Shown: in pieces, positions 1 through 17,528 of the stretch
How the letters are laid out: every line of letters begins with the position of its first letter
Position numbering within the stretch: position 1 is the first letter of the stretch
Origin: Brenneria salicis ATCC 15712 = DSM 30166
Lineage (GTDB): Bacteria > Pseudomonadota > Gammaproteobacteria > Enterobacterales > Enterobacteriaceae
Length of the DNA stretch: 64,000 nt
Assembly (NCBI RefSeq): GCF_003315515.1
Contig: NZ_QNRY01000011.1
Coordinates: 1-64,000 of the forward strand
Direction: 5' to 3'
The notes under the pieces: model-generated
Seen by the model: only the letters and a program-made list of their open reading frames with translations
The model's database searches: none
What the model was told of the DNA's origin: nothing
Made by a program: the position numbers and the translations under genes

Positions 1-20
1 TGAATGCTATGATCGGCATA

Positions 21-85
21 ACTCAGTCCGGTTGGTGATTTGTTTTGATTTGGCGATTGATCAGATCGCTCAAACCGGATTGAGT
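21..85. repeat. imperfect 13-bp inverted repeat
   Basis: Positions 21-33 (ACTCAGTCCGGTT) and 73-85 (AACCGGATTGAGT) are complementary at 12 of 13 bases, with an AT-rich 39-base interior that itself contains a CGAT/ATCG pair. It lies just past the end of the kup remnant. It could be a stem-loop, a transcription terminator without a T-run, or an end of a small mobile element. Nothing in the sequence decides between these. Confidence 0.4.
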
Positions 86-118
86 TCCCTTCAGTGATCT
101 ACTATTAGGCGCAGTTAT

Positions 119-405
119 TTAGCCGAAATAATTAAGAATCAGGGAGGGCATCGCTAAAAATAACCATACTATTCTGATCGGAGCCTTACCCAGATGCTAC
201 ATGTCGGCATAAAGCGCTTCCGCACCGGTGACGGCAACAATAACCATGCCTAATGCGGCAAAGGGGAGTGTTTTGTGCTGAACAAAGCACGCCAGTGCAA
301 CCGCAGGGTTCAGTGCTTTCAACACGCCGGCATTCATCACGATCCCTCTCTGCCTAGGGCAACCAGGGTAATAAACCACACCAGCATGACAGGTCCGAAT
401 ATCCG
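119..405 (-). pseudogene. kup: Remnant of Kup-type potassium transporter
   Basis: Minus-strand translation gives two pieces in different frames that together read like the middle of Kup. The upstream piece contains RIFGPVMLVWFITLVALG. The downstream piece contains VLKALNPAV, then AVTGAEALYADM, then a TAG stop at 197-199, and continues in the same frame as HLGKAPIRI and MPSLILNYFG up to a TAA at 119-121. Kup proteins carry FGP.M..WF, LNP.WA, GEALYADMGHFG and LNYFGQGA in this order, so family and order are clear. One frameshift (between about 340 and 380) and two in-frame stops make it non-functional. The Kup family is a low-affinity K+ uptake system of over 600 residues; only about 95 codons remain. 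It begins about 10 bases beyond the kdpE stop, so part of a second potassium transporter gene has decayed beside the high-affinity one. Confidence 0.8.
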
Positions 406-6431: not shown

Positions 6432-8117
6432 TTAGTGACCCAGTAATTGCAAATGTTCAACAATGGGCCCAAGGGCCAGTGACGGAATGAAGGTCAGCGC
6501 CCCCACCAACCAAACAGTACCGATGATCAGCCCGACAAACAGGGTGCCGTGAGTCGGCAAAGTGCCTGGACTCGCCGGTTGAGTTTTTCTTGACGCCAGC
6601 GATCCTGCAATAACCATCAGCGGAATGAACGGCGCGAAGCGACCCATTAACATGGCCGCGCCCAGCAACAGATTCCAGAAAGGGGTGTTGGCGGACAGAC
6701 CGGCGAACGCGCTGCCATTGTTATTCGCCGCAGAAGAAACCGCATACAGCACTTCGCTGAAACCATGCGCGCCTGGATTGAGCATTCCTGCACGACCGGC
6801 TTCGGACATCATCGCCAGCGCCGTGCCCAGCAGCACCAGGCAGGGAGTTATTAAGATATAAATCGCCGCCATCTTCATTTCCGGCACTCCGATTTTCTTA
6901 CCGAGGTATTCGGGGGTCCGGCCGATCATCAACCCGGCGATAAATACCGCCAGCAGCACATTCATCAACATGCCGTACAACCCTGAACCAACGCCGCCGA
7001 ACACCACTTCACCCAGTTGTATCAACCACATAGGGATCATGCCGCCCAACGACGTAAAGGAGTCATGCATGGCGTTTACCGCTCCGCAAGAGGCAGCGGT
7101 GGTAATGACGGCAAACAGGCTGGAATTGAGAATGCCGAACCGGCTTTCTTTTCCTTCCCAGTTCATCGCGCTGTCGGCGCCGGATGCCAGCAGATGCGAA
7201 TTCCCCTTCACTTCGGCCATCATCACCAATGTGACCGCCAACACGAACATCAAAGACATCGCCCAAAGAATGGTTTTACCCTGACGACGATCGCCCACCG
7301 TCTCACCAAAGGTAAAACACAGAGCCGCCGGGATAATTAATATCGCCAGCATTTGAACGAAGTTGGTCAACGCTGTCGGGTTTTCAAACGGGTGCGCGGA
7401 GTTAGCGTTAAATAAGCCGCCTCCATTGGTTCCGAGCATCTTGATAGCTTCTTGCGAGGCCACCGGTCCCATAGGTAGTGTTTGCTGAACGCCTTCAAGC
7501 GTGGTGACGGTCAAATACGGGCTGAAGTTCTGTATCGCACCCTGGCTAACCAAAAACAGCGCCATAATGAACGACAACGGCAACAGGACGAACAGCGTAA
7601 TACGCACCAGATCCCGCCATGCATTGCCCAGGTTATCCGTCGTATGGCGGGCAAAACCACGGAACAGTGCAAATAGCACCGCAATCCCGGTCGCCGCTGA
7701 CAAAAAGTTCTGTACGGCAAGGCCGATCATTTGGCTGAAATAGCTCATGGTGGATTCACCGGCATACGACTGCCAGTTAGTGTTACTTACGAAACTGATT
7801 GCGGTATTCAATGCCAAATGCCAGGACAGCCCGCCGAACCCCTGCGGATTCAAGGGCAAAATTCCCTGCATTATCAAAATAGCGAACAAAAAAATCACGC
7901 CGAGCAGGTTGAACAACAAGATAGCGTACAGATATTGACGCCAACACATTTCCCCCTCTGAAACCCCACACAGACGCCATATCCAACGCTCAACACCCGC
8001 CATCGCGGGTAATGAACAATCCTGCGCCATCGTTGTCATCCACCGCCCCAGCGGTTGGGCCAGCACAAGCAAAACCACCATAAAGGTGGCCAGCAATAAA
8101 AACGCTTCGGCTGCCAT
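6432..8117 (-). CDS. kdpA: KdpA potassium-binding subunit
   Basis: KdpA is the channel-like subunit (561 residues) that selects and moves K+. It is a polytopic membrane protein with the repeated filter loops of the superfamily of K+ transporters, for example [28 protein letters not shown] and [10 protein letters not shown]. The start is the ATG at 8117, preceded by GGAGGA. It shares one base with the kdpF stop (TGATG). A longer in-frame reading to 8222 adds 35 residues that overlap kdpF and are unlike the family, so it was rejected. Confidence 0.97.
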
Positions 8118-8206
8118 CAGAGTTCCTCCGCCCGGAAAAGGGCATAAAACAGATAGGCCAGTAACAAAAACACCAGCGCGATGCCAGCTATCAACCCTAT
8201 GTTCAC
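8117..8206 (-). CDS. kdpF: KdpF small membrane subunit
   Basis: This 29-codon gene starts at GTG (8206-8204), preceded by GGAG at 8217-8214, and ends at a TGA that overlaps the kdpA ATG by one base. The product begins [13 protein letters not shown] and ends YALFRAEEL: a single hydrophobic helix with a charged C-terminus. E. coli KdpF is also 29 residues and occupies the same place before kdpA. It stabilises the KdpABC complex in the membrane. Its small size keeps it out of ordinary ORF lists. Confidence 0.9.
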
Positions 8207-8241
8207 AGCAATTCTCCAACATATTGAGTGTTGATAAATCT

Positions 8242-8270
8242 TAGATAAATAAAAATAAAAATGTCGTCAA
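8242..8270 (-). promoter_or_regulatory. candidate kdpFABCDE promoter
   Basis: On the minus strand TTGACG (8270-8265) is followed after 17 bases by TATCTA (8247-8242), about 36 bases before the kdpF GTG. The spacer is a T-rich run. KdpE sites in E. coli are T-rich, which is suggestive only. The upstream stretch to 8523 is otherwise AT-rich and without a gene. Position and spacing fit a sigma-70 promoter, but the -10 match is poor. Confidence 0.35.
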
Positions 8271-8523
8271 TTTCCCTTCTGCACATATATAAAAAATATA
8301 AAAATAGAGTGATAGAGATGATGTTTTACCTGACGGCGTATCTTAAATGACGGGAAAAAACAGCGGGAATGCCGGTTTCTCGAACAAAACCGGCAATAAG
8401 CTCCAAGCTGCGAATAGCCCAAATCAATGGCGATGATAAAAAAAGATGAGGCGGGTTATTTAAATATCACAGTAAAAAACTCATGTTGTATTATTCCCCT
8501 CTGTCATGAAGTTAATGTCAGCG

Positions 8524-8748
8524 TTAATTATTGGCGATAATGCACGAAGTATACGACGGGCCTTCAGTAATAATCGTTCCGTCATAATGGTTGAAGGATA
8601 TCTGATGAATTTCTTGTTTGCCTCCTTTATTACCGTTGTTACAAAGCCTTTCAACAATGCCACGCAAGACTTCAGGGTGTGTGAAATGATACTGCGCGGC
8701 CACTCGGCCAACCTCATCTTTTGCGCCGCTGTGAAAATACCCTCTGCC
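8524..8748 (-). other. unrecognised open frame, possible gene remnant
   Basis: A 74-codon stop-to-stop frame with protein-like composition reads ...AAQYHFTHPEVLRGIVERL... and ends ...SCIIANN. It has no ATG; TTG and GTG codons occur inside. I do not recognise the family. Overlapping frames on both strands are also open, and neither has a convincing ribosome site. It may be a fragment left by deletion between the kdp operon and the accessory region. Confidence 0.25.
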
Positions 8749-8752
8749 CTAA

Positions 8753-9043
8753 AGACACAGGAGACATGGCCTGACTGGTGGCACTGCGCCAACCACAATC
8801 CTAATCCGTGCCCTGATATTCATCGCTGATGAAAACATCGCTCAGATAAGCGAATTTGTCAAAGTCCGTAATGATATGGGCAAAACCGACCTGACGGTTG
8901 CGCCGACCGTGACGGAACACGCCGGAAAAAATACTATTTTTATCGACATTTCGACATTTCGACATTTCGACATTTCGACATTTCGACAGTTTGTCTGTCT
9001 ATGCCTTGGGCCCAGTAGGAGCGGGGCAGAAAACTATGAATAA
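8753..9043 (+). other. unrecognised open frame containing an 8-bp repeat tract
   Basis: This 96-codon frame runs from a TAA at 8750 to a TAA at 9041. The first part has protein-like composition (TTILIRALIFIADENI, then VKVRNDMGKTDLTVAP). The frame then runs through the tandem repeat at 8943-8990, which gives a DISTFRHF-type repeat in translation. The only internal ATG is at 8876, without a clear ribosome site. The product is not recognised. It may be the tail of a lost gene whose downstream part was overwritten by repeat expansion. Confidence 0.25.
8943..8990. repeat. tandem 8-bp repeat, TCGACATT x5 plus one variant
   Basis: Five perfect head-to-tail copies of TCGACATT (8943-8982) are followed by a sixth, TCGACAGT (8983-8990). 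The unit is not a multiple of three, so a change in copy number would shift any reading frame crossing it. There are no spacers, so it is not a CRISPR array. Confidence 0.95.
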
Positions 9044-9388
9044 ACACAGTATTTAGCTCATTTAAATCCTTGCTAATTCGGAAATCGGGAACGGTGCCAG
9101 CGATGAATATTCCCGTTATCTCGCTTGCTTAAATATTCCCACGCTCAGGCATAATATTTAAATATCATACTCTTGATTAGAGTTGTTATCAATTTAACCC
9201 ATATAAATATAAAAATCCTGTCATTTTATAAATTTCATATATGTTCCACTTCCGTAACCCGCTTCTCAATGTTATCTGGTTTTGCGCTTTTGCCAGTACT
9301 GAAAAAAAGAAAGAGATAGCCCAAAATCCAGTAAGATTCTCAGTCATTCATCATTAAAGTCGGAGATTATATTAGTTTCAAAACTGGG
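9044..9388. other. AT-rich intergenic stretch, no gene seen
   Basis: This 345-base stretch is AT-rich, with short stop-riddled frames on both strands. I see no RNA gene, terminator or recognisable protein fragment in it. Confidence 0.5.
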
Positions 9389-9827
9389 GTGTTAAGTTTT
9401 TCATATATTAAAAATCAGATGACCCATGTTGATATCTATTATATTAGTCTGAGAAATGAGGATATCAAAAACAACCCTCCCGCCGGCGCCGTGATTAAGA
9501 GTTCGGAAATATCTCATTTCCTGTATGGGGTACACGATAAAATAAAAAACGCCGATTATCTTTTTATCTCAGGTGCTGCGCAGAGAACAGGAACCTGAAC
9601 AACATAATCTGATATCGGTTAAGGATGGCGTCGTTCATCCGAAGCAGGTAATGGCGGTTATTCAAAAGGTGGGGATTGAAGAGTACGGTAGGAAAGACGG
9701 CTATCGGTATTATAGGCGATGTTCCATGCTGATGAATAATGATATCAGCACGGCTGTCAGTTATCAGTTATCGGCTATTTGGCTGATAATGAACGACGAT
9801 GCGTACAACATGTGTCGGCAAGATTAA
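9389..9827 (+). pseudogene. unrecognised gene, apparently split by a frameshift
   Basis: Two overlapping plus-strand frames look like halves of one protein. The first (9389-9598) contains AGAVIKSSEISHFLYGVHDK and IKNADYLFIS. The second (9573-9827) contains EQEPEQHNLISVKDG, VHPKQVMAVIQKVGIEEY and GYRYYRR. Joining them near 9573 by a one-base shift would give about 145 residues. The family is not recognised and the first start (TTG or GTG class) has no strong ribosome site. It could also be two small ORFs. From the stop to 10055 there is only a 7-bp stem-loop (9835-9853, AAGCAAC/GTTGCTT) and a GGCGAATTCGCC palindrome at 9916-9927. Confidence 0.3.
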
Positions 9828-10055
9828 GCTGGTTAAGCAACCCGCCGTTGCTTGATCGGATCAATACCATCAAGTCACTTTAGGGATTAGACCCGTTCTG
9901 AATAATTCGAATTGCGGCGAATTCGCCGGGAACGAATTCGGCGATCCAACAACGGGGCTGCGATGAGCAACAGGATGTCTCCTATCCATCACCAGGCTTT
10001 ACCAAACTGTTCACGGGATGGGTAACACGGTTGCGAAGGCATTGCCAAAACGCTA

Positions 10056-11006
10056 TCAATCAGCCAGGGCGATGACACGATCGTTCTCGCCCGGTTGACA
10101 TCCCGCCGCAATGGGAGACCAGCCGTGGCTAACGACAACGCGCCGTCCGTCATGACAAATTTCAAGGCGTTCGCTGCCAGGTAGTTGCGCCTGAATGAAG
10201 GTTTCGACGGTTTCCGGCAAGCTGATTTTCAGCCGCATGGCCTCACGGTCTGCCTTGGGATGATCGTCCAGATGCAACAACGGCACAAACGTCGATGCCA
10301 ACATCATCCAACGCGAGGGAATCGCAACGGGTTCAGGCGTATAGCGCGCCTGACGAAGCCAATCTTGCGCGCGCCCGCGCAAGTTTTCGCCATCGGCAAG
10401 GTTTCCCCACGCCACGGCGAGCAACTCCATGACCCACTGGTTACAGTTCTGATAGTCCAGACCAAAGGCATAGGCGTTGGCGCTGTAATCCGCCGCCAGC
10501 AATCGTAAGGCAAGCCGCGAGTCGAGCGCCGCTGAACGCAACTTTCGCGCCGCCTCCGCAGGGAGCTTGACTACCGAGATATAACCGAGCGATGCATTTT
10601 CAGTTCCCATCGCGAACCCGGCAAGCCCCTGATCGTAGATACGCGGCCGCCCTTCATCACAGGCGTAATAGAGTTGGCGCGCGGTCCATCGCCCATTTTC
10701 GCCACGCAAGGCAACCGCGGCATGTGAATAGCGGATATTAAAACGCGAGAGGTCAAGACCAGAACGGCTAATCAACACTGCATCCCCGTCGGTCGCGGCG
10801 AGTTCTTCGTCCACGACGGCGGCGAAACGCAGCAGCCTATCCTGCTGACCCGCGGAAAACTGCTGCGGGCGGTCACAAAAATCTGAACCCGCCGAAGTGG
10901 GGGACGATGATATGGGGGACGATGATGTGGCAGGAAGCTTCGCGCACCCCGTGGCTAGCATGACGACGGCCAGCACCCATGCGAACGGGCAGCCCTTCCT
11001 CATCAC
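10056..11006 (-). CDS. DUF2145-family lipoprotein
   Basis: This 316-residue exported protein has a lipoprotein signal ending in LATGC at residues 17-21, so Cys21 should be lipidated. The mature part has the DUF2145 pattern: FCDRPQQFSAGQQDRLLRFA, then ISRSGLDLSRFNIRYSHAAVA, QLYYACDEGRPRIYDQGL and YQNCNQWVMELLA. The conserved His, Cys and Asn residues recall papain-like or NlpC-type folds, but no activity is established and none is claimed. It overlaps the upstream exported-protein gene by 4 bases (ATGA), so the two form an operon. It is richer in G+C than the flanking fragments, which fits acquisition. Confidence 0.8.
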   Translation of the reverse strand: MMRKGCPFAWVLAVVMLATGCAKLPATSSSPISSSPTSAGSDFCDRPQQFSAGQQDRLLRFAAVVDEELAATDGDAVLISRSGLDLSRFNIRYSHAAVALRGENGRWTARQLYYACDEGRPRIYDQGLAGFAMGTENASLGYISVVKLPAEAARKLRSAALDSRLALRLLAADYSANAYAFGLDYQNCNQWVMELLAVAWGNLADGENLRGRAQDWLRQARYTPEPVAIPSRWMMLASTFVPLLHLDDHPKADREAMRLKISLPETVETFIQAQLPGSERLEICHDGRRVVVSHGWSPIAAGCQPGENDRVIALAD

Positions 11007-11467
11007 TGAGTAACGGCGCGTGCGGCGAGATCGTCGTGCCAGTTGTCGGCAAGCACTAGGTAAAAAGCTTCCCGCGTATCGCCACGAGCGAATTCCAGAC
11101 CGTAGACTCTCTGCTGAGCGAGCACCATGTCGCCGGCCTCCAAGCCTTGCTTGTCGAGAACCGCCAACGGCAGATCGAGCACGAGGCTACGCCGTGTATC
11201 ATCGCCTTGCAGGGTGACACGGCGAAATCCGGTGCGGTTAGGCGCGTCAGCAACATCAATGATGCGGTAATTGCCGCCCGCCGTCTTTTCATTATCCTTT
11301 GAACTGTCGCTCGATCCGCTTAACGAATCCGATACGCTCCCGCTGGATGCCGATCCTGCGCTGGAGGCCGATGAAGCGGATGACGCAAAGATTTCAGCCT
11401 GTGCGTGGAACGAAGCGCCGATGGCCGCCATCAGGCAGACATGACGAAAAATCGTTAGAAAGGCCAT
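11003..11467 (-). CDS. exported Ser-rich hypothetical protein
   Basis: This 154-residue protein has a signal peptide (about 1-24, ending HAQA) followed by a low-complexity Ser/Ala stretch (about 27-60). A compact C-terminal domain follows with GNYRIIDVADAPNRTGFRRV and a segment ending YLVLADNWHDDL. The family is not recognised beyond its pairing with DUF2145. Start ATG 11467 is preceded by AAGGAA. It is first gene of a two-gene operon whose upstream region holds the operator at 11672. It is probably periplasmic, and a joint function with the lipoprotein is inferred from the 4-base overlap only. Confidence 0.7.
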   Translation of the reverse strand: MAFLTIFRHVCLMAAIGASFHAQAEIFASSASSASSAGSASSGSVSDSLSGSSDSSKDNEKTAGGNYRIIDVADAPNRTGFRRVTLQGDDTRRSLVLDLPLAVLDKQGLEAGDMVLAQQRVYGLEFARGDTREAFYLVLADNWHDDLAARAVTQ

Positions 11468-11671
11468 ATTGGTTCCTTAAGTAAAGCAAACATTGACTAC
11501 GTTGTTCTTGACAAGAAAGCGTCGCGGTTCAATGCCGACATCTCTCTTTTAACGCTACCGCGGCAACGGCTATTCCGGCTTGAGATTCGTGCCGCGCACC
11601 GTGGGATCGATATGGTTTGGCCCGTATCTGATGCGCGGACGATTTTGCCGGGATAACAACATATTTCTTAA

Positions 11672-11685
11672 TGACCGATCGTTCA
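11672..11685. promoter_or_regulatory. candidate TetR operator, copy 1
   Basis: TGACCGATCGTTCA is an imperfect palindrome around CGATCG. With flanks (AATGA...TCATT, 11670-11687) it is an 18-bp near-palindrome with a single mismatched position in each arm. A 17-base stretch (TGACCGATCGTTCATTA) is repeated exactly at 12876-12892. It lies between the tetR stop and the start of the minus-strand exported-protein operon, about 205 bases upstream of that start. The rest of 11468-11828 shows no gene. Confidence 0.65.
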
Positions 11686-11828
11686 TTAGTACTCTACTAT
11701 TGAATGAACAGACAGTAAATACCCGGTTCGACAATATAGGCGCGCTTTTCGCGGCAGACCCGGAGGCCCAAGCCAAAAGAGACCGTTTGGCCACGCCGGA
11801 CAGGAGGCGGATACTATACGGACTGCGG

Positions 11829-12485
11829 CTATTCGTCAGGGCGTAGCAACAAGGTCAACAGCTTGCGGTGCGTCTCTTTGACGGCCTGCACCTCTCTCTG
11901 CGCCTTCTCCTTGTCCATCACCATCTGAGCTACCGCCGAATAGACGACGGGGGCCATCACAACGCTGAAGTTTTCGGTCAACGGACTGGGCTTTACCACA
12001 CCGGCCGCCACGTACCCATCGATAAGCGCCTGGCGATCTTTGCGTCCCTGCATGTTTCCGGCCCCCCATTTTGCGAGTAGGTGCGGCACACGATGCCCTT
12101 CAGTGATGAGAAGCCGGGCAATCGCAATCGTATCGTCGGTCAGTCCACCGTAGGCAAAATCAATAAGACGCTCGACAAGTTCGTCAGCATTTTCCACATC
12201 CCGCAACAGGTTCCAGTTGCTTTCCGAGCGGCTCATCAATTGCTCAAGGAGCGTCTCGAATATATCGTCCTTGCTGGCGAAATGGACATAAACGTTGGCC
12301 TTAGATATACCCGCTCGGCAGGCAATCCTGGAAATGCTGGCGGCGGTAAAGCCCAAGGCGTTGAATTCGGTCAGGGCCGCATCGAGAATCTGTCGGCGCC
12401 GAACTTCAAGAGGCAAACGCGTTCTTTTCTTTTTTTTGTTGGGATCAACCTCGGGCAGGGAGGCTGATGGATTTTTTTTCTTCAT
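11829..12485 (-). CDS. TetR-family transcriptional regulator
   Basis: This 218-residue regulator opens with a Lys-rich leader (MKKKNPSASLPEVDPNKKKK). It is followed by the TetR helix-turn-helix: RRRQILDAALTEFNALGF, ASISRIACRAGISKANVYVHF and ASKDDIFETLLEQL. The remainder is the variable ligand and dimer domain. ATG 12485 is chosen; a GTG at 12515 would add ten residues and cannot be excluded. It sits between two outward-reading units: the exported-protein/DUF2145 pair downstream on the same strand, and the MlaA-like gene on the opposite strand. Each has the same operator-like sequence upstream, so this protein is the likely repressor of both. The ligand is unknown. Confidence 0.9.
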   Translation of the reverse strand: MKKKNPSASLPEVDPNKKKKRTRLPLEVRRRQILDAALTEFNALGFTAASISRIACRAGISKANVYVHFASKDDIFETLLEQLMSRSESNWNLLRDVENADELVERLIDFAYGGLTDDTIAIARLLITEGHRVPHLLAKWGAGNMQGRKDRQALIDGYVAAGVVKPSPLTENFSVVMAPVVYSAVAQMVMDKEKAQREVQAVKETHRKLLTLLLRPDE

Positions 12486-12875
12486 ACTGCCAATGTCATA
12501 TGAGCGTCGGATCACAAGGCCTGCGCGCAGCCCCCGTACACGACCGGCGGAATTAACGGGGCCAGGAGGGAAGCGTTTCCCTCGCTTTGGCGTCGTTCAA
12601 GGCTGTAAGCATCAAAGCGAATACAATGCCGCATGCCACTCGCCGCAAATCGTTCGATCACTTCCGGCAAGGCGCCATCACTGGGCGCATATTGGCTAGC
12701 CGCCCTCGTGTTCAGGAGTGAATGGGCGCAGCCCTGGTTCGTCAGAGTTTAAAACACGAGGTCGTCAAACGCTCTCTTTTATTATTACCGCCCTCCTGGA
12801 CCGGAGCAACCGACCACTCCGCGCTCTCCAACGGGGCTGATACTGAAGTGGTTTAAACCGGCAAAAAAACATTAC
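12486..12875. other. intergenic region upstream of tetR
   Basis: No gene is supported here. The tetR promoter should lie in it, but no copy of the operator sequence was seen next to the tetR start. A 9-bp inverted repeat, CCTCGTGTT (12704-12712) and AACACGAGG (12753-12761), is present with a 40-base interior and no known role. Confidence 0.5.
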
Positions 12876-12889
12876 TGACCGATCGTTCA
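12876..12889. promoter_or_regulatory. candidate TetR operator, copy 2
   Basis: This is an exact second copy of TGACCGATCGTTCA, and identity continues for three more bases to 12892. It lies about 195 bases upstream of the MlaA-like start and is directly followed by TATGATATAAAT, which could supply a -10 element. Binding here would block that promoter. Confidence 0.65.
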
Positions 12890-13082
12890 TTATGATATAA
12901 ATCGCTTACCGCCCCACAACTCAAGCCAGTCAAGGGAAAATACGGCAGCGCATTTGCTCCTTCAGACTTCGGCATACATAGCGGGGGCCATGCAGCGGAA
13001 TGGGGGCAAATCCGGCCGCCGGACTGCTTGATGAAAATTACGGCTTGACCAACGGCCTTCTTCACAAGAAAGGAATACATCT

Positions 13083-13979
13083 ATGAATGCATGCCGCCTC
13101 ATCCTGCTTACCCTGATTGTGCTGGTTACCAGCGCCTGCGCCGGTGATAACGTGCAACAGAAGGCCGACGCTTCAAGTTCCCCTACGCCGATTGCCGCTG
13201 ATCGGGCCGCTGAGTCTTCAGCCTCCACGTCGGAAGCCGCTCGCGCAACGGGGATAGCGGGTTCCGCCAGAACCGGGACGGCTGCGGAGCCAGTCACACC
13301 GCCGTCTGCTGGCGATGCGCAAACCGTTCCCCTGACGTCGGCCAACGACGCGGTTTCGCCCGGCACGGAAGGATCCGCGCGCGATCCGTGGGAGGGATTC
13401 AACCGTCGGATGCACGGCGTCAACAATGGCATCGACAAATACGTGACTCGTCCCCTGGCGATCACCTATGAGAAGATCACGCCAGAATCGGTGCAATCAA
13501 GCGTGACGCGGTTCTTCAAGAACCTGGGCGAACCGACAACGGCCGTCAACCACACCTTGCAAGGAAGACCGGGGCAGGGCGCACAATCATTGGGGCGCTT
13601 TGTCGTCAACTCGACTATCGGGATCGGCGGCCTGTTCGATCCGGCGTCCCACATCGGCTTATCCAGGCAATCCAGTGAGGACTTTGGGCAAACGCTTGCC
13701 ACATGGGGCTGGCGCGATTCCCGTTATCTCGTGATGCCTTTACTCGGCCCACGTACCGTCCGCGACACCGTGAGCATGGTCGGTGACCAACCTCTGTCTC
13801 CCATCGGCTACGTGGAAAACAGCGGAGTGGCATACACGCTGCAAGTCATGAAACTGGTGGATGGGCGAGCGCGCGCGCTCCCCATGGACGAAGCCCGCGA
13901 ACAGGCGGAAGACGAATATGTGCTGGTGCGTGACGCCTGGATGCAGCGGCGTGACCGTCAGATAGATCAGGATCTGTGA
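13083..13979 (+). CDS. MlaA/VacJ-family outer-membrane lipoprotein paralogue
   Basis: This 298-residue lipoprotein has a signal with lipobox TSAC (Cys19). A long Ser/Ala/Thr-rich linker (about 20-95) is followed by the MlaA domain: DPWEGFNRRMHGVNNGID, the segment GEPTTAVNHTLQGRPGQG, GRFVVNSTIGIGGLFDPA, DFGQTLATWGW and YLVMPLLGPRTVRDT. MlaA sits in the outer membrane and removes mislocalised phospholipid by passing it to MlaC and the MlaFEDB importer. Here no mlaBCDEF gene is nearby, and the linker makes it longer than the usual 250 residues. It is therefore more likely an acquired paralogue than the housekeeping gene. ATG is preceded by AAGGAA. It diverges from tetR and carries an operator copy upstream. 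Confidence 0.88.
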   Translation: MNACRLILLTLIVLVTSACAGDNVQQKADASSSPTPIAADRAAESSASTSEAARATGIAGSARTGTAAEPVTPPSAGDAQTVPLTSANDAVSPGTEGSARDPWEGFNRRMHGVNNGIDKYVTRPLAITYEKITPESVQSSVTRFFKNLGEPTTAVNHTLQGRPGQGAQSLGRFVVNSTIGIGGLFDPASHIGLSRQSSEDFGQTLATWGWRDSRYLVMPLLGPRTVRDTVSMVGDQPLSPIGYVENSGVAYTLQVMKLVDGRARALPMDEAREQAEDEYVLVRDAWMQRRDRQIDQDL

Positions 13980-14033
13980 TAAAAACCGGACTGAGAGGTT
14001 AAACGGCCACAGTGGTCGGCATCTTTCGCCAGA

Positions 14034-14255
14034 TTAATTAACGACGTGATCCGCCAACTCGCCGATAGGTAAGATGTCGTCCTTTAGTCGTAATAGAAAG
14101 TTGAAGCAGATTTTCAGGCAGGGCAGCGCCTGAAAGACCTGCGCCACCAATGGCATAAACGCTGCATCTTTATCGGATGCGGACACTTCATGGTGTGCGA
14201 AGGTTTTCAGTAATTTCCGGCGTTGAATAATATACTGCGCGATTATTTCAAATGA
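14034..14255 (-). other. unrecognised open frame, possible C-terminal gene fragment
   Basis: A 73-codon frame with protein-like composition reads ...RRKLLKTFAHHEVSASDKDA..., MPLVAQVFQALPCLK, and ends ...GELADHVVN. There is no ATG before codon 34 and no ribosome site. It lies just downstream, on the same strand, of the SnoaL-like lipoprotein gene. Family not recognised. Confidence 0.3.
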
Positions 14256-14300
14256 TTATCCAGCGTTATTGCCGTGGCGACAATAACGCTTGTCCGTACA

Positions 14301-14804
14301 TTAAAACATGCCGTTCTGGTTGGCGCTGGTTTGTGGCACGGGCTGCACTACATCCCAATGTTCTACAATCTTCCCGTTGTCAACGCGCAGGATATCGACA
14401 ACGGCATTTCCGGTATCCTGCGGACCGTTTTTGGCGAAAACATGCAGATAGACCAGATTGCCGTCGGTCGCGGTGCGAATGATGCGGCTTTCGGCATGCG
14501 GATAACTTGCATAATAGTCCCGGAGCGCGGTTACAAGCGCTTCCCGTCCTGTCGCGATGAACGGATTGTGCTGGATGTAATCTTCGCTCAGATATTGATA
14601 CGCCAGATCCACATTGTGGTTAATTAAAACGGCGGTATAAAACTCAATCACCAGCGCCCGGTTTTTTTCTTCCTGCACCAGCTTTCTTTGACTGGTTTGT
14701 GTTAACTCCGTCGCTGCGGGTGACGGCGCTTGCCTCTGGGAACAGGCAGACAGCGACATCGTCAGGCAGAACGCACCAGCAATAACAATAAATCGTGGTT
14801 TCAT
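14301..14804 (-). CDS. SnoaL-like (NTF2-fold) lipoprotein
   Basis: This 167-residue exported protein begins MKPRFIVIAGAFCLTMSLSAC, giving a lipobox at Cys21. The mature domain fits the SnoaL/NTF2-like group: ALVIEFYTAVLINHNVDLAY, LSEDYIQHNPFIATGREAL, NLVYLHVFAK and GKIVEHWDVVQPVP. Relatives are predicted small-molecule binding or isomerase proteins; the substrate here is unknown. ATG 14804 is chosen for its GGAGAG ribosome site and immediate signal peptide. The longer reading to 14900 adds 32 residues before the signal and was rejected. Confidence 0.82.
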   Translation of the reverse strand: MKPRFIVIAGAFCLTMSLSACSQRQAPSPAATELTQTSQRKLVQEEKNRALVIEFYTAVLINHNVDLAYQYLSEDYIQHNPFIATGREALVTALRDYYASYPHAESRIIRTATDGNLVYLHVFAKNGPQDTGNAVVDILRVDNGKIVEHWDVVQPVPQTSANQNGMF

Positions 14805-14889
14805 CTTGTTCGCTCTCCGGTTCGACAAAATATCGGCTTTCCGACCGGCATCATACCAGTTTTGTCGCCAATCCCGCCGTATAAATAGT

Positions 14890-15060
14890 ATGAGTTCCAA
14901 TATTCAGCGATTTGTTATTAAATGCGCTGTAGATAATGTTAAAAGTAATGCTGTCGCAATGAGAAGTGGATTCACTTTCGAAGGCGCTTTACGAAATGCT
15001 GAGATACGGAATCGAATTTCCCATTATCCAAGTTTATACTCAAAACTAATAGGCTATTAA
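14890..15060 (+). pseudogene. C-terminal fragment of GNAT acetyltransferase (RimJ/RimL type)
   Basis: The 56 residues contain RFVIKCAVDNVKSNAVAMRS, then GFTFEGALRNAEIRN and HYPSLYSKLIG. This matches the last third of RimL-like N-acetyltransferases, where a DN..S..VA...GF..EG.LR pattern closes the acetyl-CoA site. The N-terminal two thirds, including the pyrophosphate loop, are missing. The sequence upstream is the promoter region of the divergent lipoprotein gene. It is AT-richer than the TetR cassette, so it is probably a relic. Confidence 0.75.
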
Positions 15061-15227
15061 TGACCCTTCAGCTATGGATGTTAATTTCGATATGGTTTGG
15101 CGATATTGATTTTGTTACTTGATATAGGTTAGCAATATAACAGGCAGGGTTTATAGTTCAACGCCTTTAGCCACTCATTTACACGCAGACTAAATATCTT
15201 CGCTATTAAATTTTTCTGCAATTATTT

Positions 15228-16237
15228 TTATTCCGATAAATATTGTCCCATAATGGATATCTGATCGTTATAAAAATCAATAGTTAATGTTGCGCCCACA
15301 GGCAAAGTAAGCATCGGATGTGTATGACAGCAATCGAAACCATCAACTATGGGGATTTGTTGCTCACCCAAAACCTCTGTCAATACATCATAGGGTTTCC
15401 GTCCACTTCCTGAGCAATCAAAAAGTTCATGTTTACCAAGGAGAATTGCACTTACTTTTTGGAAAATACCATTCAGTTTCAACATGGAAAATGAACGTTC
15501 AACAGTCGCTATGTCCTTCATGCTATCTTCAATAAACAAAATGTCGCCGGGCATTATTTCCGGCATCCATTCGCTTCCCTAAGATTACCCCCGATAACAC
15601 GGCCTTTTATCAGCCCCTGGCCTATAAAACGGCAGTTATTCTTGTATAGCGTTTTAGGGCGAACAGGTTTTATGTCATCCCAGTTAAGACGCTCGTCAGT
15701 CCATTTACTGAGAAGTTTGTAAGTGTAGTTACCCTTTTTTCGCCTGGTGAGTATATCAATAAAGCATTCATAGGTTGAGTCAACAAGGGGGGGGAATTCC
15801 CCGAAGGAAGGAACCAGCGCTGGGCCATAAAATGTGATCAATCCCGTTTTGGCATAAATACCTGCAAGCAGCGCGGTTGTATCCGAATATCCAATTATCA
15901 CTTTGGGATCCCCGATGAGAGCGTCATAGTCCAGAAAAGGTAGCAGAGAATTGCTATTATTTCCCCCTATCGTCGACATCACACAACGAACTTTCGGGTC
16001 ACGGACAAGTTCATTAAACTCATGTGCTCTCTCAGCAATAGTGCCTGACCGATAAAAATCAGACTTGCCGGTCAAATTGCCTGCTTTAAGTAGAAACCCT
16101 TTATCCTCCAGGAATTTTTTCCCACGGCTAAAGCGATTTGGGGCCGTTGTTGTTACCGGATCTGATGAGGAGAAAAAACCAATCGTATCTCCGACAATCA
16201 GAGGTTTTGCTAAAAGTGGAGTGCTTAATTTGGCCAT
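15228..16237 (-). pseudogene. MccF-like S66 serine peptidase, broken by internal deletion
   Basis: The family (LD-carboxypeptidase/MccF, S66) cleaves muropeptides or, in MccF, inactivates the antibiotic microcin C. The first part (16237-15554) carries PLIVGDTIGFFSSSDPVT, the GGNNSNSLLPFLD segment around the nucleophile region, GYSDTTALLAGIYAKTG and FYGPALVPSFGEFP, and ends at GRVIGGNL. The second part, in another frame, resumes at GSEWMPEIMPGDILFIEDS and continues through ERSFSMLKLNGIF to the HTHPMLTLPVGA C-terminus. Between GGNL and GSEW the family has about seven more residues. About 20 bases (2 modulo 3) are therefore missing at 15575-15583, shifting the frame. The S66 Glu and His triad members lie after the break, so the truncated product should be inactive. 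Immunity-type function is inferred from sequence resemblance. Confidence 0.8.
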
Positions 16238-16492
16238 CTGGAATCCTTGCCTTTATAGACGATCAGAAGAACGGTATGAATGTCCTCACAGACGAATCCG
16301 CAGAATGTTTTATTGTTTCGACATGAAGCTTAGCCAACAAATTCGCAGACGGGGAATCATATTCCGCAAATGGTACCGGAAGCAATAATCGACCCTATAT
16401 TGCCCCTGGGGGGTGAGTAATCTTTTGGGAAGTGAATAATGTATTCCACTATTATTTATTTGATTATTTATTTGATGGAATAGTTACCTAAG
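16238..16492. other. intergenic region between mccF-like pseudogene and nrdF
   Basis: This stretch is AT-rich, especially 16430-16490, and has no supported gene. It should hold the promoter of the mccF-like pseudogene near its low end. Confidence 0.4.
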
Positions 16493-16518
16493 CCCCTGAA
16501 TCAGCGATGATTCAGGGG
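16493..16518 (-). terminator. terminator of the nrdHIEF operon
   Basis: A perfect 11-bp stem (CCCCTGAATCA at 16493-16503, TGATTCAGGGG at 16508-16518) closes on a GCGA loop, 24 bases beyond the nrdF stop. The T-rich tail is better on the plus strand than on the minus strand, so efficiency is uncertain. Confidence 0.6.
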
Positions 16519-16541
16519 TTTGTCGTTTCAGGGCGGTTACC

Positions 16542-17528
<987 letters not shown>

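Follow-up and report, generated by a model that had tools for sequence, protein, structure and literature searches.

A predicted TetR-controlled cassette with twin operators joins an accessory MlaA and a DUF2145 protein in Brenneria salicis

Analysis of a 64,000-nt stretch of Brenneria salicis ATCC 15712 (= DSM 30166; RefSeq assembly GCF_003315515.1, contig NZ_QNRY01000011.1, positions 1 to 64,000 of the forward strand; hereafter, the window) pointed to a four-gene cassette that is probably a horizontally moved regulon, in which a TetR-family regulator would hold two flanking envelope units silent through two palindromes until a ligand releases it. What can be read directly from the DNA is the set of genes, the predicted operators, the conservation of these operators, their linkage to TetR proteins across species, and the occurrence of the block at two unrelated locations. 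From left to right, the cassette comprises a DUF2145 gene, a small exported gene, tetR, and mlaA, all at the expected places:

10056-11006, (-) strand: DUF2145 protein, 316 aa (PF09916, E 1e-51); probable lipoprotein (LATGC-AK, by eye)
11003-11467, (-) strand: small exported protein, 154 aa; no Pfam family; signal peptide by eye (AQA/E); Ser-rich segment
11669-11688, strand not applicable: predicted operator A, TAATGACCGATCGTTCATTA, 201 bp upstream of the start codon of the exported/DUF2145 unit
11829-12515, (-) strand: TetR-family regulator (PF00440, the N-terminal TetR helix-turn-helix, E 1.8e-13, above the cut-off)
12873-12892, strand not applicable: predicted operator B, TACTGACCGATCGTTCATTA, 190 bp upstream of the mlaA start codon
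13083-13979, (+) strand: accessory MlaA, 298 aa (PF04333, E 5.4e-69); probable lipoprotein (VTSAC-AG, by eye)

Pfam matches and open reading frame (ORF) coordinates bore out the preliminary description of this region, which had placed a TetR gene between an exported-protein/DUF2145 operon and an MlaA-like gene. The small exported gene overlaps the DUF2145 gene by 4 bp. The true start of tetR is likely the ATG at 12485, because the homologous proteins of a congener (G008) and of Pseudomonas marginalis begin there. Signal peptides and lipoboxes were read by eye from the ORFs; in DUF2145 and MlaA alike, the cysteine of the lipobox-like end is followed by alanine, an arrangement that specifies outer-membrane sorting under the +2 rule. 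A search of the window with Rfam at the gathering threshold gave no structured RNA match, and a reading of the cassette as a defence system was dropped, as PADLOC had no match for any of the four proteins.

The 17-mer TGACCGATCGTTCATTA occurs exactly at 11672 and 12876, which confirmed the earlier observation that the same 17-bp sequence, with an imperfect palindrome, lies before both outer units. It sits inside a 21-bp repeat of 20/21 identity, and the natural repeat unit is a 20-bp near-palindrome whose two copies are alike at 19 of 20 positions, with 18/20 palindromic positions in operator A and 16/20 in operator B. None of 500 dinucleotide shuffles of the cassette contained an exact 17-bp repeat, nor did a shared 17-mer arise when the two intergenic regions were shuffled 2000 times. 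At the scale of the 64-kb window, exact 17-bp repeats are not rare (8 observed; present in 5 of 20 shuffles), so that the evidence lies in the placement of the repeat within the cassette and not in its mere existence. When up to two mismatches were allowed, the 17-mer was found at these two places only in the whole 3.9-Mb genome, the third row of the output being site A on the other strand. Given that there is no third genomic site, tetR lacks a close copy near its own start and is therefore probably not autoregulated through this motif.

Sites of the same type accompany related regulators in other bacteria. The P. marginalis TetR is 76% identical to that of the cassette over 217 residues, and two sites, TACTGACCGATCGTTCGGTA and TAATGACCGATCGGTCGTTA, lie 33 bp apart upstream of a MipA/OmpV gene, starting 134 and 101 bp before it, with an integrase gene beyond. 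Among 298 genomes of that genus, P. marginalis included, the TetR query identified two at E 1e-25, P. marginalis itself and G224 (L104; 41% identical). A matrix built solely from four sites (two from the window and two from P. marginalis) was then run on the 250 bp preceding three distant TetR genes, those of Verticiella (37% identical), G722 (38%), and G224. It retrieved TAACGAACGATTGGTCGTTA at -72 in Verticiella and TAACGACCGGTGGGTCGTTA at -65 in G722, none of 300 shuffles doing as well in either case, with scores of 24.5 and 21.1, respectively, as compared with at most 8.9 in ten control regions before other TetR genes. In Verticiella, OEP and RND genes come after tetR; the G722 tetR lies beside OEP, HlyD, and ABC genes, and that of G224 precedes an OEP gene. 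The helix stretch SKANVY is common to the three close TetR proteins (window, G008, and P. marginalis), and the distant ones carry SKAG or TKAG. The repeat is thus very probably the operator of the cassette TetR, a prediction based on the preservation of both sites in G008 and on the presence of the motif next to related TetR genes in three further genomes. Judging from these neighborhoods, the regulator belongs to a lineage that accompanies efflux genes and has come to face envelope genes in the cassette. The preliminary description had one regulator switching on two envelope units together through two operators; findings in G008, P. marginalis, Verticiella, and G722 support the regulator, operators, and units well, whereas "switching on" presumes a repressor. 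Its suggestion that a membrane-active compound may be the signal is in keeping with the efflux setting of the TetR relatives.

In the congener G008 (L075), the four genes recur with unchanged order and orientation, and both 20-mers are identical to those of the window. The aligned block spans 4112 bp (window 10056 to 14040) at 81% DNA identity; identity is 82-90% in the genes, 65-66% in the intergenic regions (gaps counted), and 35-41% in the flanks, which are unrelated. Comparison of the first 30 kb of the window with 20 kb of G008 around the block revealed a sole other match, of 119 bp (window 5-122). The unchanged operators amid diverged intergenic DNA, together with the unrelated flanks, therefore indicate that the block moved as a unit. 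An extra motif match with three mismatches, 34 bp from operator A in G008, may be due to chance. In G008, a TraC-type conjugation gene (L075 8419-11112, (-) strand) lies ∼2.8 kb from the cassette. The cassette lies in a GC-rich stretch of the window (0.50-0.62, as opposed to 0.36-0.47 in the immediate flanks) (0.49-0.57 in kdpA, further left), and the region left of window position 16484 had no match at E 1e-10 to the 7-17 kb beyond nrdF in five congeners. Considering the unrelated flanks, the nearby TraC gene, the GC-rich stretch, and the absence of a match beyond nrdF, the four-gene block is most likely mobile cargo.

The co-occurrence check proposed in the preliminary description does not refute it: the four-gene set with its repeated operators is also present in this congener, though it is rare. 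When 59 genomes were searched with TetR, G008 alone matched strongly (89%) besides the genome of the window, and the runner-up reached E 3e-12. In the order and class samples, at most the best 6 to 7 candidates per genome were scored. The 368 other class genomes contained one TetR match at E 1e-25, a distant relative with 38% identity, and two DUF2145 matches at the same threshold, with 32-33% identity. Spread on plasmids was rejected, as one plasmid record matched cassette DNA over just 13% of the cassette, in mlaA; E. coli genomes had no match to cassette DNA. A phage origin was likewise discarded, DUF2145 having no relative in viral contigs; the operator pattern has matches in 16 viral stretches, which may be due to chance.

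Comparison with known regulators placed the cassette TetR near efflux repressors. Its best solved-structure match by sequence is AefR (3cdl, E 8.7e-11), with which it shares a TetR_N domain. According to PMC11915855, AefR represses mexEF-oprN in P. fluorescens and senses flavonoids. AefR and similar repressors act on local efflux pumps, and the distant relatives of the cassette TetR also adjoin efflux genes. However, the AefR match covers only residues 37-153 of the cassette protein, TetR_C_7 fell below the cut-off, and, unlike efflux repressors, the cassette TetR faces two separate targets encoding exported proteins. No efflux gene was recognized by eye among the ORFs of 7000-17500. The cassette TetR was thus not taken as an AefR orthologue, given the partial-length match and the lack of a recognized RND pump target. 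A second comparison concerns the operator. Passages of PMC7022988 report that the TetR-family protein TTHB023/PfmR of Thermus thermophilus binds CTGACCGATCGGTCAG at ∼2 nM; the inner 14 bp of this site is one base off the cassette's TGACCGATCGTTCA, and the string GACCGATCGGTC is present in print, including in these passages. In Thermus, such sites map to the promoters of fatty-acid genes, whereas the cassette palindrome has TAA/TTA arms and other targets.

MlaA (VacJ) is a component of the Mla outer-membrane asymmetry system. In the cassette protein, a ∼75-residue Ser/Thr/Ala-rich linker precedes a full-length MlaA domain, and the match to solved MlaA chains lies within residues 92-291. It differs from the MlaA of that system in being an extra copy, ∼33% identical to native-type MlaA, with this long N-terminal linker. 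All nine genus genomes encode an MlaA 33-35% identical to the cassette one, and a second match occurs in the two cassette carriers only; the cassette MlaA is evidently a second, divergent copy in addition to the native one. No other mla genes were seen by eye among the ORFs of 7000-17500. The nearest outside relative found is an MlaA on a Variovorax megaplasmid (58%), located directly behind an RND gene. MlaA matches were present in 67 plasmid records, and five more of these were opened: an RND/MMPL gene is near mlaA in three and absent in one, and one is unannotated. Hence, counting Variovorax, four of the five relatives' mlaA loci with readable genes have an RND or MMPL gene nearby.

Passages of PMC10318531 treat DUF2145 as papain-like, with a conserved serine in place of the cysteine. 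These passages do not carry residue numbers, and the catalytic columns were thus deduced from an alignment of 16 DUF2145 members. One His is invariant, and the presumed nucleophile column holds Cys in nine proteins (those of the window, the near-copy in G008, Mitsuaria, and six with QNCT) and Ser in the other seven. The window DUF2145 has His and Cys (QNCNQW) at the presumed active-site positions, and by these columns it therefore carries a Cys-His pair; the aligned His and Cys/Ser columns are putatively the catalytic positions of the family. Those parts of PMC10318531 name Ser alone, as opposed to the nine Cys-bearing members aligned here. A papain-like fold of the cassette protein is predicted on the basis of the same source. 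Thirteen of 369 class genomes, counting this one, encode DUF2145, as against none of 14 control genomes.

The small exported gene is a recurrent DUF2145 neighbor. A short same-strand gene with an export signal, as judged by eye, lies directly upstream in 9 of 11 further DUF2145 loci of the class sample, and such a gene is also found at all three plasmid DUF2145 loci opened (of five found). The cassette protein is 88% identical to its counterpart in G008 and 45% to that in Mitsuaria. The pair resembles the Salmonella STM0539-family (DUF7765)/DUF2145 pair in that a small protein directly precedes DUF2145. However, the window small protein has no family match, its profile comparison to STM0539 is weak, and the Salmonella DUF2145 has Ser where the window DUF2145 has Cys. 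The local match to STM0539 is suggestive but falls short of establishing homology (31 columns, probability 11%, E 0.0026).

From these elements we infer repression, a ligand, catalysis, and co-operation of the two units. A TetR dimer would most likely bind both 20-bp palindromes and keep both envelope units off until freed from the DNA by a small ligand of lipophilic or aromatic nature, possibly a plant phenolic or an antimicrobial. The efflux context of the TetR relatives speaks for such a ligand, as does the flavonoid sensing of AefR, whose solved structure is the closest by sequence. Derepression would yield extra MlaA, which may clear mislocalized phospholipids from the outer leaflet and presumably passes them on to the Mla system of the host. 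The exported partner protein would be made along with the papain-like DUF2145 lipoprotein, which may modify an amide- or ester-linked envelope component. The cell would be expected to handle its outer-membrane phospholipids differently and to export a papain-like activity. A broader interpretation, which we advance tentatively and hold to be less probable than the regulon itself, is that of a mobile outer-membrane adaptation cassette: an efflux-side repressor lineage might have been rewired by operator multiplication to outer-membrane composition, inducing the accessory MlaA and a cysteine-type DUF2145 lipoprotein with hydrolase or acyl-transferase activity in the envelope.

Several results weigh against the proposed regulon. 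A consensus scan detected no sigma-70 promoter at operator A or B, and leaders of 190-201 bp are long. The G224 TetR gene has a weak site alone (5/300 shuffles as good); two of the ten control regions gave shuffle counts of 2 and 5 of 300, equal to or better than that of G224, and the latter site was therefore not counted. The operators are not the only intergenic 20-mers that B. salicis and G008 share without change (13/407 and 23/618 windows), so that conservation by itself is weak evidence and the weight falls on both predefined sites being kept. The single-sequence AlphaFold model of DUF2145 was too poor to confirm a fold (mean pLDDT 36). Finally, rarity counts against it: the DUF2145 gene is present in two of nine genomes of the genus, this one and G008, and the TetR query, with at most 7 candidates scored per genome, had no match at E 1e-22 in 393 other sampled genomes of the order.

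If the operators are real, the two envelope units may still be unrelated in function and share a regulator module with no joint envelope role, an alternative we regard as unlikely but worth weighing. In Mitsuaria, the exported/DUF2145 pair is annotated without TetR or MlaA in 17 kb (in a gene table that is incomplete), and tblastn found no MlaA; the nearest MlaA, in Variovorax, lies behind an RND gene; and the P. marginalis TetR faces a MipA gene instead. These arrangements argue for independent histories of the cassette parts. A shared function is nonetheless favored by the integrity of the set, all four genes plus both sites, in two genomes whose flanks are unrelated. It is less probable still that TetR acts as an activator, or both activates and represses, with the repeats as upstream activating sites. 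The two sites lie almost equally far from their start codons (201 and 190 bp) and are not overlapped by a consensus promoter, which would suit such a role, but the sites lie closer, in repressor-like positions, in P. marginalis (134/101 bp before the gene) and in two distant relatives (72/65 bp before tetR), and activators are a minority of the TetR family. That the repeat arose by chance, or as DNA duplicated with the cassette, and is no operator is very improbable: exact 17-bp repeats are common enough in the window, but the cassette-scale shuffles, the restriction to two places in the genome, and the recurrence of the motif near related TetR genes of three further genomes all argue against it.

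Each part of the cassette is of a known kind. In the literature, covered mostly outside subscription journals, neither a TetR-controlled accessory MlaA combined with a DUF2145 pair nor the mobility of such a set was found, and none of the titles listed names a TetR regulator of MlaA. Chromosomal control of Mla is reportedly known, e.g., RamA and mlaFEDCB in Klebsiella. If the proposed regulon is correct, an extra MlaA that was acquired laterally and is switched by a ligand would make outer-membrane lipid asymmetry also an inducible accessory trait. The block further provides the uncharacterized DUF2145 family with a putative regulator, a recurrent neighbor gene, and a testable context, suggests that the nucleophile of this family is not always serine, and defines an operator well enough for a direct binding test.

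The surroundings of the cassette in the window hold some additional features. Adjoining it, at 14301-14900 on the (-) strand, is a gene for a SnoaL-like protein with a lipobox-like signal by eye, which has no match in the 20 kb of G008 holding the block copy. On the other side, KdpA (6432-8222, (-) strand) is encoded in four of the nine genus genomes at E 1e-100; the other three proteins are 66-67% identical, and the gene may have been acquired. The gene-poor stretch between kdpA and the cassette contains a perfect tandem array of 5.8 copies of TCGACATT (8943-8988). An LD-carboxypeptidase (S66) at 15228-16237 on the (-) strand appears as two overlapping frames with its N- and C-terminal domains apart and is probably a broken gene.

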